From the NCBI GenBank assembly GCA_035998445.1, contig DASYHQ010000013.1, positions 124,001 to 188,000 of the forward strand: a DNA stretch of 64,000 bases, written 5' to 3'. Under the pieces are notes generated by a model. It had not been told where the DNA came from and did not search any database. It saw nothing but the letters and a program-made list of their open reading frames with translations. The stretch is from Tepidisphaeraceae bacterium. GTDB lineage: Bacteria; Planctomycetota; Phycisphaerae; Tepidisphaerales; Tepidisphaeraceae. This document shows positions 48,403 to 53,335 of this stretch, one piece after another; within the stretch, counting starts at the first letter, position 1, and each line of letters opens with the position of its first letter. A program made the position numbers and the translations under genes.

Positions 48403-48507
48403 TGTCATCCCGAAGGAAGCTGTAGCGACCTGAGGGATCTCGAACCACGGACGGTTCTCGACCTTGGGAGATCCCTCAGGTCGGCAAGCCTCCCATCGGG
48501 ATGACAC
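48403..48507. repeat. Inverted repeat CGACCTGAGGGATCTC type between convergent genes
   Basis: 39-nt arms at 48403-48441 and ~48468-48506, starting TGTCATCCCGA and ending CGACCTGAGGGATCTC, about 32 of 39 matching, with a ~26-nt loop. A further half element GTCATCCCGATG lies at 48361, and GCGGAC(A/G)AAACCT occurs twice just before (48329 and 48389), hinting at a local duplication. Dispersed repeat, possible bidirectional terminator. Confidence 0.75.
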
Positions 48508-48553: not shown

Positions 48554-49459
48554 TTACCCCTTGGTCTGCAGCACCCGGCCCGGTCGCATGCGCGGTGGGA
48601 CCGGCTGGATCAGCTTCCGCCGCTCGGGCGTCAGGCGGGCCATCAGCTCGTCCGACGGCAAGTAGTTGTATCGCGGCAGCAGCACGTGCGGCGAATACCG
48701 GTAGATCATCACCCGCCGATGACCGGGGTTGGTGCGGGACGTCGAACCGTGGCAGATGGCGTCGGTAAACATCAAGGCGTCGCCAGCCTTCAAATGCACC
48801 TCCTGCATGCCCACCTGGTCACCGGCGACGATGTCGTCGTTATACGACTGCGGCTTGCCCACGCGATCGCCCACGGCCCGCAACGCCGGGTGCACCTCAT
48901 GGCTCTTGTGGCTGCCGGGGATAACGGTCGTGCAACCGTCGCCGGGGCCGATGTCGGTCAGCGCCATCAGGATGTTGATCTGTCCGACCATCCAATGGCC
49001 CGTGTGGTGGCGCACCACATGTGGGAATGCTGCTACGTGACCGCCGGAGTGCAGGCCGATGAATCCACCCTGGCCGCGCACGTTCAGGAACGCTTCGTTG
49101 ATCGAGATGCCGTGGCCGTCTGTGCTGATGTACCGGCGCACGTCGCCGAACCACGCGGGGTGATCGATGCATTCCTCGAACACGTCGCCGCCCTCGATGA
49201 TGTTCTGGAAGTTCACGCCGTCGTGACCCTGGTACGACTGCGCCTCCACGTCGCCCACCCAGTCACCAATGTTGCCGGGCGGGTGGGCGTCCACCCAGCC
49301 GTTGATGCGCTTGAGCTGGTCTGGCGAAAGCGCGCCCTTCAACACGCGAAACCCGTTCAGGTCGAACAGGTAATCGCGCTCGGCAACAGCGTTGCTGTCG
49401 GCGGTGTTGGCAGGACTCGTGGTGGTAGAGGGCGGTGGTGACGTGAGCGTGGATTTCAT
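48554..49459 (-). CDS. Phytanoyl-CoA dioxygenase (PhyH)-family protein with HxG in place of HxD
   Basis: 301 aa. After a Thr/Ser/Pro-rich head (1-25), RDYLFDLNGFRVLKGAL starts the double-stranded beta helix. INILMALTDIGPGDG, IPGSHKSHE and AGDALMFTDAICHGS are PhyH family signatures. The distal metal His is His237 (CHGS), with a 2-oxoglutarate Arg at 248. The proximal motif reads GLHSGGH: His137-Ser-Gly139, with no Asp/Glu at the third position (nor after His141, HVA). In Fe/2OG enzymes HxG or HxA is known from halogenases. It could also be a diverged non-catalytic member. Divergent from an AraC-type regulator (72 bp). Confidence 0.85.
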   Translation of the reverse strand: MKSTLTSPPPSTTTSPANTADSNAVAERDYLFDLNGFRVLKGALSPDQLKRINGWVDAHPPGNIGDWVGDVEAQSYQGHDGVNFQNIIEGGDVFEECIDHPAWFGDVRRYISTDGHGISINEAFLNVRGQGGFIGLHSGGHVAAFPHVVRHHTGHWMVGQINILMALTDIGPGDGCTTVIPGSHKSHEVHPALRAVGDRVGKPQSYNDDIVAGDQVGMQEVHLKAGDALMFTDAICHGSTSRTNPGHRRVMIYRYSPHVLLPRYNYLPSDELMARLTPERRKLIQPVPPRMRPGRVLQTKG

Positions 49460-49531
49460 GCTCGCATTGTTACGAACGGCGAGCGCGGCGTCTTCTCACG
49501 GCATGCCTGCGTGTTATCATCCTATGTCTTC

Positions 49532-50422
49532 ATGCGGGTGAAACTTCCCATTCCGTCGGGCGACGTTGGCTTCGTGCAGGAGGCATGGGCGCGTTCGCTC
49601 AAGCCATGGAAGGGACCGCCGCACCGGCATGCGGAGTTGGAACTGAACTTGGTGTGCTCGGGGCACGCGGTGTACCTGGTGCGCAGCCGACAACCCAAAG
49701 GCCGGCAGCAGTCGCTGGGCTCGAACCGCATCAACATCGCGGCCGACAACATCCTGTGGTTGTTTCCATCGCAGGAACACATGCTGGTCGAATGCTCGTC
49801 CGATTTTCACATGCTGATCGCGGTCTTCCGCCCGGCGCTGGTCGACAGCGTTCGGCAGATGGACCGGCAGTTGAACCCGCTGGGCAGCCAGAGCGGATCG
49901 AGCAGCCCGGCGCGCATCGTAACGAAAGCGGTCCGCGCGCAGTTGCAGCCGTTGATGTCCAGTCTTACGACCGGCGGCACGGTTGATCACGCGACCACCG
50001 CCGTCGAGCGAGACTGGGGGATGCGGTGGCTGCTGGCTTCGGCATGGCGGGCTTACGAGGCGGCGTCGGACGCGCCGGTAATGGCCGACGTGCACCCCGC
50101 GGTGGAGCGGGCGGCGTTCTTGTTGCGCGACGATCCGGGCCAGTTCGACCTGGCGCTGCTGGCCCGTCGGGCGGGCGTTAGCCCCGCGTGGCTCAGCCGG
50201 CTGTTTCAACGACAGTTGGGGATGTCCGTCACCGAGTTCCGCAACCGCCAGCGCATCTCGCGATATCTGGCCGCGCATCGATCCGGTAAGGGGCAGACCC
50301 TAACCGCGGCGGCATTCGCGGCCGGGTTTAACAGCTATCCCCAGTTCTACCGCGTCTTCCGCTCCTTCACCGGATTAAGCCCGGTGGAGTACGACTCGCA
50401 GAACAGGACCTCATACGTGTAA
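49532..50422 (+). CDS. AraC-family transcriptional regulator with cupin-like sensor
   Basis: 296 aa from the ATG at 49532; a GTG at 49511 is the alternative. The N-terminal half (HRHAELELNLVCSGHAVYLV, split: PPHRHAELELNLV; ILWLFPSQEHMLVECS) is an AraC-type cupin sensor with a His-rich ligand edge. The C-terminal ~105 residues are the double HTH: DLALLARRAGVSPAWLSRLFQRQLG and LTAAAFAAGFNSYPQFYRVFRSF (both split by helices). Divergent from the PhyH-family gene at 49459, so it probably regulates it and itself. Confidence 0.88.
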   Translation: MRVKLPIPSGDVGFVQEAWARSLKPWKGPPHRHAELELNLVCSGHAVYLVRSRQPKGRQQSLGSNRINIAADNILWLFPSQEHMLVECSSDFHMLIAVFRPALVDSVRQMDRQLNPLGSQSGSSSPARIVTKAVRAQLQPLMSSLTTGGTVDHATTAVERDWGMRWLLASAWRAYEAASDAPVMADVHPAVERAAFLLRDDPGQFDLALLARRAGVSPAWLSRLFQRQLGMSVTEFRNRQRISRYLAAHRSGKGQTLTAAAFAAGFNSYPQFYRVFRSFTGLSPVEYDSQNRTSYV

Positions 50423-50605: not shown

Positions 50606-53335
50606 ATGGCCCGTACCCGTAACTTCGGCAGGTGGATCACCATGGCTGCATTTGCGACCCTTCCCGTGGCGCAATCCTTGCTCGCGGTCGAAATCACCAC
50701 AAAGGCCGACGCGCCTGATGCGCTGATCGTCGATGATGCGAAGTCCACCGTCACCGTGACGGTGAAGGCCAACGAACCCGCCGACGCGGGCACCTACGAG
50801 TTGCGGCAGACCTTCGTCGATCGGTACGGTCAAACCAGGCAGGGACCCGCGGTGTCGATCGAGCTGAAGGATCAATGGAAGCAACAGGTGAACGTGCCGG
50901 TCGAGCATTTCGGACCGGCCGCCTATCGCGCGACGCTTCATAAGGCCGGTGATGGCGATGAACCGGTAGCGCAGGCGGAGCAGTTGCTCATTCGGCCCGT
51001 GGCCGTGCCATTGCTGAACCGCGAGCAGCGGGCTGATTCGCCCATCGGCATTAACGTGCACACGAACGCGCATTGGAAGACGCTCGGGCAGATGGGCGTC
51101 CACTGGGCGCGTGATTATTCGTGGGGCTGGCTGGGGCCTGGCGAGCAGTGGCCACAAGCGCCGAACAAGACGAACTTCGGCAAGCTGGAACCCACCGCTG
51201 ACGCCGCGGGCATCACCATTCTGCCCGTGATGCAGAAGGCGTTTCGCACGGAAGACGACAAGTATTTCATCAGTGACGGCAAGGCGATCGCTGCGGGTTA
51301 CGAGCGGCTGGCGCGGGCCGTGCCGCAGTTGAAGTATTGGGAACTGGACAACGAGGCCGAGCTTCAGCATCGCGATGAGGACTCGCCGGAGTACAAAAAG
51401 TGGTTCGAGACGTACCTGGAGTACATCAAGTACGCCGATCAGGGCCTGAAGGCGGCCGGCACCGGCGCAGAGGTCGTGCTGAACGGTGAGGCGGGCATCC
51501 ACCTCGAACGTACGCAGGAATTGCTGGACAAGGTCGGCGAGCACTTCGCGGTCATCAACTATCACTTCTACACCGGCACCGTCGCGCCTGAACTGGCGCT
51601 GAACGACATCAACACGGGCAGCGAGAGCCGCGTGCGTACCACCGCGTTCCTCGATCAGATGCTGCAGATCAACCGAATGGCCAAGGCCGCCGGTAAGGAG
51701 GCGTGGCTGACGGAGATCGGCTGGTCTGCGCGATCGGGCCCAGCCGTGGGGGATCGACTTCAGTCGGCGTATCTCGAGCGGCTGTACTTGCTGTCGCGCT
51801 GGGCCGGCACCGACAAGGTCTTCTGGTTCTGGGATCGCGAACTGAAGCCGGGCGGGCGCTTCAGCAGCATGGAACTCGTGCACAGCAAGGAAGGCGCCCG
51901 CGCCGCCGGCGCGGCGATGGCGGCGGTGTCGAAGTACACCGCACAGGCGTCGTACGCGGGTTCGGTCGATCTTGGGCCCGATCGCTGGTGCCTGATCTTC
52001 CAGCAGCCGGATGGCACACACACCGCGGCCGCCTGGGCGGTCGCCGGAGCGCATGATCTGCCGGAAACGCTCGCCAGTGCCGGCGAGGCATTCGACATGT
52101 ACGGCAACCCGCTGCGCGACCGGCAACTGACGGTCGAGCCGGCATACTTTACGTTGTCACAACTACCGGCGGCATGGCAGGGGCAGCTGAAGGTGGAATG
52201 GGTCAGCCCGCGACTCATCAACGTCAATCGCGGCGCGTCGGCTCAGGTCGAGATGGAAATGCCCGCGGGCGGTACGGTGACGTTCGACGGGTTGCCAGAA
52301 GGGGTGAAGGCGGACGATTGGAAGCAGGACGGCACGCTGCGCACCACAACACTTCACGTGCCGCCGACATTGGAAGCCGGCACCTACAACGTGACCGCCG
52401 TCGCGAAAGGCGAGGGTTGGCAGAAGCGGTTCCCGCTATCGCTGCGGACCCGGTCGAGCGTCGCCATCGACGCCGTTGCGTATGCTGCGGGCAAGCCTGC
52501 GAAGATCGAGTTTACGAACCGCATAGAAAAGGAGCAGCAGGCGAAGTTGAGCGTAGAGCAGGGCACGATCGAGCCGGCGAACGTGACGTTGTCGCCGCAG
52601 GGCACCGTCACCGCCAGGTACACCGCGCCGGAGGGGGCTGCGGGCCCGGTAGCGCTCGACGTCCAGATGGCCGACGGCGGCACGGAGCAGTACTGGATCC
52701 GGCCGATCCAGTTGAACGTACCGCGCGCCGGCGAGGTCAAGATTGACGGTGACCTGAGCGACTGGCCGCAGGGTAGCGCTGGCGGCGTGCTGACGGAAAA
52801 GGCCCTTCAGTTGAACGGCCCCGAAGAGAACTTCCAGCCGACTATGCGACTCGCTTGGTCCCCGGCCGGACTCAATGTCGCTGCGCGCATTCCCGTAGGG
52901 CCGGACTTCGAGCCGGCACAGGATCCGAAGTCGTTCTGGGAGTGGACGAGTCTTGAGATGAACGTCAGCACGGCCGATCTTAGCAGTCCGCCCGACCCGG
53001 CCCGGTCCCACCTGCTGTGGTTCACGCCGTACAAGGACAACGCCAAGGCCGACTGGCGCCTGTACGCCGGCCAATGGTTGAAGGTCATGCCGGACGGGAA
53101 GAAAGAGACGCTGAACGATGACCAGCGCATGCCCAACGCGATGAAGTACGACGGCGAGACAGTGACGATCGAGGTGCTCGTTCCTACCGAGGTACTCGGA
53201 GCCACGCCGAAGGTGGGTGAGCAATGGGGCCTGACGATTCACAGCAAGATCGCCAAAGCCCTGAGCCCGCGCACGCTGGCGGCGTGGCCGTCAACGAAGG
53301 GTGGGCAACGGGGGACGATCAGGTTTGTCGAGTAG
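50606..53335 (+). CDS. Secreted clan GH-A-like glycosidase with C-terminal CBM9-like domain
   Basis: 909 aa. The ATG at 50606 follows GGAGGACAAC. Signal peptide to about AVA/LLAVE (residue ~28), then an N-terminal beta-sandwich (~30-135). The TIM barrel (~145-450) begins SPIGINVHTNAHW. WELDNEAE (Asn249-Glu250) fits the clan-A acid/base pair and WLTEIGWSA (Glu370) fits the nucleophile on strand 7; AVINYHFYTG lies between. C-terminal beta domains lead to GEVKIDGDLSDWPQG at ~709, the start of a CBM9-like or DOMON-like domain. Family probably near GH39/GH5-type enzymes; the specificity is open. Confidence 0.83.
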   Translation: MARTRNFGRWITMAAFATLPVAQSLLAVEITTKADAPDALIVDDAKSTVTVTVKANEPADAGTYELRQTFVDRYGQTRQGPAVSIELKDQWKQQVNVPVEHFGPAAYRATLHKAGDGDEPVAQAEQLLIRPVAVPLLNREQRADSPIGINVHTNAHWKTLGQMGVHWARDYSWGWLGPGEQWPQAPNKTNFGKLEPTADAAGITILPVMQKAFRTEDDKYFISDGKAIAAGYERLARAVPQLKYWELDNEAELQHRDEDSPEYKKWFETYLEYIKYADQGLKAAGTGAEVVLNGEAGIHLERTQELLDKVGEHFAVINYHFYTGTVAPELALNDINTGSESRVRTTAFLDQMLQINRMAKAAGKEAWLTEIGWSARSGPAVGDRLQSAYLERLYLLSRWAGTDKVFWFWDRELKPGGRFSSMELVHSKEGARAAGAAMAAVSKYTAQASYAGSVDLGPDRWCLIFQQPDGTHTAAAWAVAGAHDLPETLASAGEAFDMYGNPLRDRQLTVEPAYFTLSQLPAAWQGQLKVEWVSPRLINVNRGASAQVEMEMPAGGTVTFDGLPEGVKADDWKQDGTLRTTTLHVPPTLEAGTYNVTAVAKGEGWQKRFPLSLRTRSSVAIDAVAYAAGKPAKIEFTNRIEKEQQAKLSVEQGTIEPANVTLSPQGTVTARYTAPEGAAGPVALDVQMADGGTEQYWIRPIQLNVPRAGEVKIDGDLSDWPQGSAGGVLTEKALQLNGPEENFQPTMRLAWSPAGLNVAARIPVGPDFEPAQDPKSFWEWTSLEMNVSTADLSSPPDPARSHLLWFTPYKDNAKADWRLYAGQWLKVMPDGKKETLNDDQRMPNAMKYDGETVTIEVLVPTEVLGATPKVGEQWGLTIHSKIAKALSPRTLAAWPSTKGGQRGTIRFVE

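Follow-up and report, generated by a model that had tools for sequence, protein, structure and literature searches.

The gene on the minus strand at positions 48,554 to 49,459 of the window (that is, the whole 64,000-nt stretch of DNA that was analysed) probably encodes a HygX-type Fe(II)/2-oxoglutarate (2OG) oxygenase acting on a carbohydrate-like substrate. Two histidines would hold the iron, and the third site would be open or filled from elsewhere in the protein. This reading is built on what was observed: the protein and the family it belongs to, a set of invariant residues, HygX as the nearest solved structure and a clade lying apart from SyrB2-like proteins. Oxidation of a sugar-like molecule appears more likely than the addition of chlorine, because the glycine that replaces the usual iron-binding aspartate is fixed family-wide and the nearest solved relative acts on a sugar antibiotic. 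The features referred to are the following.

48554..49459, minus strand: PhyH-family Fe(II)/2OG oxygenase, HSG type, 301 aa (PF05721, 61.6 bits; AF2 model; HygX fold match)
49511..50422, plus strand: divergent AraC-type regulator (HTH_18, 66.1 bits)
49094..49096, minus strand: codon of Glu122, 15 residues before His137, in the column of HygX Glu87 (Glu in 103/103 HSG rows; HygX alignment)
49049..49051, minus strand: codon of His137, putative proximal iron ligand (His in 103/103 HSG rows)
49043..49045, minus strand: codon of Gly139, replacing the HxD carboxylate (Gly in 103/103 HSG rows)
48761..48763, minus strand: codon of Asp233, at position -4 from the distal His, candidate substitute for the HxD carboxylate (Asp in 103/103 HSG rows)
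48749..48751, minus strand: codon of His237, putative distal iron ligand (His in 103/103 HSG rows)
48716..48718, minus strand: codon of Arg248, predicted 2OG binding (Arg in 103/103 HSG rows)

The HSG motif and its family

The open reading frame starts with ATG, and its product is matched by the Pfam PhyH model well above the gathering cut-off of 22 bits (E 1.7e-16). By this family membership and its predicted Fe/2OG site, the protein is a PhyH-family Fe/2OG oxygenase. It lacks the HxD...H iron triad of PhyH and has HSG...H instead. The proximal motif reads L136-H137-S138-G139-G140-H141, so that the residue at +2 is Gly after H137 and Ala after H141. The earlier note had described LHSGGH as having no Asp or Glu at +2 of either histidine, with the distal His237 and the 2OG Arg248 kept, and this description is correct on both counts. 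The role of Arg248 as 2OG binder is one that we take from established knowledge of PhyH proteins.

In the alignment, eight residues (E122, R128, H137, G139, D233, H237, R242 and R248) are invariant in all 103 HSG rows. These rows correspond to 102 genes, the window gene having been entered twice (as the window and as L001), and they include 16 further pairs that are at least 97 percent identical. Gly139 therefore passed the alignment test that had been set for the motif. Position 138 varies (S in 72 rows, C in 23, G in 7 and T in 1). Variation of the glycine among homologues, which the earlier note had named as a refuting sign, is absent inside the HSG family and present in the wider sister group, where G, S, T and H all occur. 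At position 141, 75 of the 103 rows have His, so that on the alignment this second histidine is no fixed part of the motif; as a substitute metal ligand it was dropped for the same reason.

In a set of 61 genomes, made up of the one that holds the window and 60 related ones, full-length HSG relatives occur in 5, the window's own included, and the latter also carries a paralogue 50 percent identical to the window protein (L002). Among 392 genomes of the phylum, with up to six candidates scored per genome, 22 have a match at E 1e-15 or better, of which 17 have a core HSG-type match and five have weaker sister matches only, the split being made by score. The window protein used alone as query against the genome contigs found no relative. 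A family-profile scan of named genomes gave 376 relatives, and the best 80 of these were kept. They span ten phyla plus four unplaced loci and come mostly from metagenome assemblies (Chloroflexota 37, Latescibacterota 11, Planctomycetota 7, Gemmatimonadota 6, Verrucomicrobiota 5, Pseudomonadota 3, Poribacteria 2, Handelsmaniibacteriota 2, Armatimonadota 2, Spirochaetota 1). Three loci (L060, L075 and L112) encode proteins identical to loci already in the set and were counted once. Another HSG homologue (L030, G076:C99:97064-97894) has one TGA within the matched stretch; its stop-to-stop frame is 289 aa long, and the TGA may merely mark the gene end. Among the open-access papers listed in literature searches, no description of the HSG family was seen. 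The family offers a large natural set for asking what replaces the aspartate.

HygX as the nearest solved relative

The HygX-type reading is preferred because HygX is the best match in each sequence and fold comparison. It is the top hit among solved structures in a phmmer search with the window protein (E 6.3e-7) and with the family profile (E 4.1e-11), both alignments beginning downstream of the HxG motif. The sister-group profile matches HygX at E 1.3e-18, from the HygX N-terminus through the distal His, and aligns its LHGG on the HxG motif. A first AF2 model of the window protein, built from six rows, was poor (pLDDT 62.6) and was discarded; a second, built from 110 of 129 picked sequences, reached a pLDDT of 93.6 and a pTM of 0.89. 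When the latter was submitted to Foldseek, ranks 1-16 were all HygX chains, and VIA-align of HygX with the model gave a Z of 25.1 and an rmsd of 2.6 over 220 residues. The next structure, TlxI, a fold relative from the HxD family, scored a Z of 23.1, so the lead of HygX is modest. Moreover, HygX is only 17-20 percent identical to the window protein, and its substrate and reaction therefore need not transfer. HygX is an oxidative cyclase that makes the hygromycin B orthoester. According to the PDB titles, it has been crystallised with iron and also with nickel, 2OG and hygromycin B. In a passage of a review, the HygX structure is said to fit hydrogen abstraction near a glycosidic linkage.

The phylogeny agrees with these matches. 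A first quick tree was built with the trait columns excluded and with 110 of the 203 rows retained after thinning. In it, a branch with SH-aLRT 97 sets apart 45 rows, namely the window protein, the other thinned HSG-family rows, the LHGG sister group and HygX. A second quick tree, with ten long-branch rows removed and ten rows added from the loci of the chlorinating-enzyme scan of the phylum (seven SyrB2-like and three neighbouring PhyH proteins), recovered the same 45-row set with SH-aLRT 95. HygX lies on a long branch in both trees; it is the nearest solved structure and shares the clade. In the second tree, the SyrB2-like group is represented by three HQA and four HQD rows rather than by SyrB2 itself; these rows cluster with each other and lie outside the 45-row set, so the carboxylate was lost at least twice in PhyH. 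One further protein with an HSG motif (L086, minus strand 9842) falls outside the family, on a long branch among HxD rows, and may represent a third loss.

The surroundings of the genes say less. The earlier note had taken the divergent AraC gene as the protein's own regulator and hence as a sign of an inducible enzyme. The AraC gene is indeed there, but it carries no weight and was dropped as evidence, since it is just as frequent beside PhyH genes with the usual HxD: among genes with enough flank (four HSG and six HxD rows with short flanks were set aside), a divergent AraC gene accompanies 21 of 98 in the HSG family, 7 of 25 in the sister group and 17 of 68 with HxD. Among the neighbour proteins of HSG loci, of which 114 of 153 picked were scanned, covering 43 of the 44 thinned loci, there is a weak tendency towards carbohydrate degradation. 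They include AraC-type proteins (7), sulfatases (4), enolase-superfamily proteins (3), ABC permeases (3) and two each of GH31, Gfo/Idh/MocA and HpcH aldolase proteins, alongside two each of acetyltransferases, HAD hydrolases, nitrilases and radical SAM proteins, which are unrelated to sugar. The neighbourhoods are mixed, the top family accounting for 7 of 114 proteins among the 25 of 163 families listed.

In the window, the PhyH gene is flanked on one side by a DASS-type symporter. On the other, past the AraC gene, lies a gene for a 909-aa protein (50606-53335, plus strand). This protein has sub-threshold matches only, to NPCBM-associated, glycosidase-core (E 0.13) and Ig-like models, and it perhaps belongs to an undescribed glycosidase-like family. 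On the 3' side of the PhyH gene, positions 48426-48483 contain two copies of GATCCCTCAGGTCG in inverted orientation. Lengthened to 20 positions, this pattern has 49 copies in the genome (28 forward and 21 reverse; reversed control 0), and from this copy number it looks like an interspersed REP-like element.

In the proposed mechanism, iron would be bound by His137, His237 and 2OG, the latter anchored through Arg248, with Gly139 occupying the usual aspartate position. With O2, an iron-oxo species would attack a C-H bond of the substrate and remove its hydrogen; this substrate would be polar and probably carbohydrate-like, and Glu122 may help to hold it. The enzyme would thereby hydroxylate, oxidatively demethylate or oxidatively cyclise the substrate instead of chlorinating it. 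In this scheme the activity, the two-histidine iron site, the substrate type and the role of Glu122 are what we infer.

The third iron position

The identity of the third iron ligand is the main point of interest. The site may be empty or may be filled by one of two candidates, Asp233 or Glu122. The acid four residues before the distal His (-4) is the most interesting candidate, albeit an unproven one. A variant of the HygX-type reading, differing at the metal site, would make Asp233, which is replaced by Glu in HygX and the sister group, the third ligand, so that a triad H...(D/E)xxxH replaces HxD...H; we consider this possible but rather unlikely. Of the 203 usable rows (3 of 206 were dropped for missing columns), 131 lack a +2 acid, and 128 of these carry an acid at -4; among the 72 rows with a +2 acid, one does. 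In the thinned set plus ten added rows, SyrB2-like proteins included, the -4 acid occurs in 47 of 50 rows lacking the +2 acid and in 5 of 70 rows that have it. Moreover, the -4 acid is retained while the +2 residue drifts among G, S, T and H, and the HygX structure paper reportedly notes a variation in metal coordination in HygX itself, which would favour such a relocation. When columns were ranked by mutual information with loss of the +2 acid, position 233 came second; it was surpassed by Tyr30, a column near the N-terminus that seems to mark the clade.

The pattern, though striking, comes mostly from one clade, with one independent pair on starred branches and three on all branches, so that no significance can be attached to it. 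Furthermore, five proteins carry both acids (the SyrB2-like HQD proteins L200, L201, L203 and L204, plus L009), and it is because of these that Asp233 as replacement ligand is retained only as a rival; the HQA proteins L197, L198, L199 and L202 also have Glu at -4. In the AF2 model, Asp233 is the first residue past strand 228-232, and His237 starts the next strand. Should the idea hold, which we regard as doubtful, the whole HygX/HSG/LHGG clade would have a permuted triad, the carboxylate having moved from +2 of the first His to -4 of the second, and many bacterial non-HxD PhyH proteins that are easily mistaken for halogenases or dead enzymes would be genuine oxygenases.

Glu122 was lowered as a replacement metal ligand. 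By spacing, its column corresponds to Gln139 of PHYHD1, since Glu122 lies six residues before Arg128 and Gln139 six before Lys145 (counted on the printed chain), and the published docking, as given in the passage drawn on, places Gln139 among the residues holding the substrate ribose. Additionally, 21 of the 28 other proteins that lack a +2 acid have His or Asn at this position. The parallel supports a role of Glu122 as a putative substrate contact near the iron.

The earlier note had gone on to a Fe/2OG halogenase, in which Gly139 leaves space for chloride as in SyrB2 (HxA) and in the halogenase WelO5, an HxG enzyme. The missing +2 carboxylate, the invariant Gly and the preserved remainder of the Fe/2OG site all stand from that reading, and a two-His iron site would in principle allow halide binding too. 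The step from HxG to a halogenase is unsupported, however. Gly139 is the small residue (Ala or Gly) in place of the carboxylate that goes with the chlorinating-enzyme model TIGR01762, and 8 of 24 family members match this model weakly; the window protein scores 20.2 bits against a curated cut-off of 226.3, 206 bits short, and no protein in the 392 genomes of the phylum, with up to six candidates scored per genome, exceeded that cut-off. The nearest solved structure is HygX, which like AspH has HxG without halogenation, and in the quick tree the family is separate from the SyrB2-like rows with HxA. Asp233 is invariant in the family, whereas SyrB2 and CytC3, both of the solved PhyH halogenases in the comparison, have Ser there, an argument limited by the Glu at -4 of SyrB2-like HQA proteins of the phylum. 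Moreover, no NRPS or PKS families appear among the 25 of 163 neighbour families listed. We judge a halogenase quite improbable for the window protein.

Better halogenase candidates than the window gene may be the SyrB2-like HxA proteins (WHQAST) found in four genomes of the same phylum (L197, L198, L199 and L202, in G245, G190, G083 and G412). The first of these matches SyrB2 at E 8e-34, the best of the four scores 154 bits, below the 226 of the halogenase cut-off, and all have Glu at the distal His-4.

Loss of iron chemistry in an inactive or non-oxygenase member, to which the missing canonical carboxylate might point, is very hard to credit, given that both histidines, the 2OG Arg and two acids never vary across the 103 rows, which come from many phyla, unlike in a decayed site, and that the AF2 model is confident.

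Comparison with known systems

The HygX-type oxygenase remains the preferred reading. HygX (4xc9, 4xca, 4xcb and 4zpi) and the window protein share the fold and an HxG proximal motif (HygX His102-Gly-Gly104), a Glu 15 residues before that His (HygX Glu87) and an acid at -4 from the distal His (HygX Glu202 and His206), the HygX numbers being counted along the printed PDB chain sequence. Carrying all three of these sequence features, the window protein would belong to a HygX-like group. The two differ in that HygX has Glu at -4 where the HSG family has Asp, and in their setting: the HygX pathway makes an antibiotic, whereas the window gene lies beside the AraC gene and the symporter.

The LHGG sister group (L033, L034, L041-L044 and others) resembles the HSG family in its YLFDL-type N-terminus and C-terminal motifs, in lacking an acid at +2 and in having an acid, Glu, at -4. 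Unlike the HSG family, it varies at +2 and has mostly His or Asn at position 122. Three of its members (L154, L155 and L076 plus strand 3292) have His at +2 (HHH, HHH and HMH, respectively) and could bind iron with three His ligands.

SyrB2 and CytC3 have in common with the HSG family a PhyH-like fold and the absence of the +2 carboxylate, but they are HxA proteins with Ser at -4, and SyrB2-like rows lie outside the clade. Human AspH is not a PhyH protein. In the passages drawn on from the AspH paper (PMC8252765), loss of the HxD carboxylate is described as a mark of Fe/2OG halogenases, while AspH itself, with HxG...H like the window protein, is a hydroxylase with a two-His iron; its substrates, unlike those proposed here, are EGF-like domains. 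PHYHD1 and FJS, 2'-O-methyl nucleoside demethylases, belong to the PhyH family as does the window protein, and differ from it in retaining the HxD triad, as far as the passages drawn on describe them (the literature passages used overall being from PMC12709175, PMC8252765 and PMC8234114). Set against these systems, the HSG family is a widespread one in which carboxylate loss is fixed and the nearest solved relative is an oxygenase, which counsels caution in calling HxG PhyH proteins halogenases.
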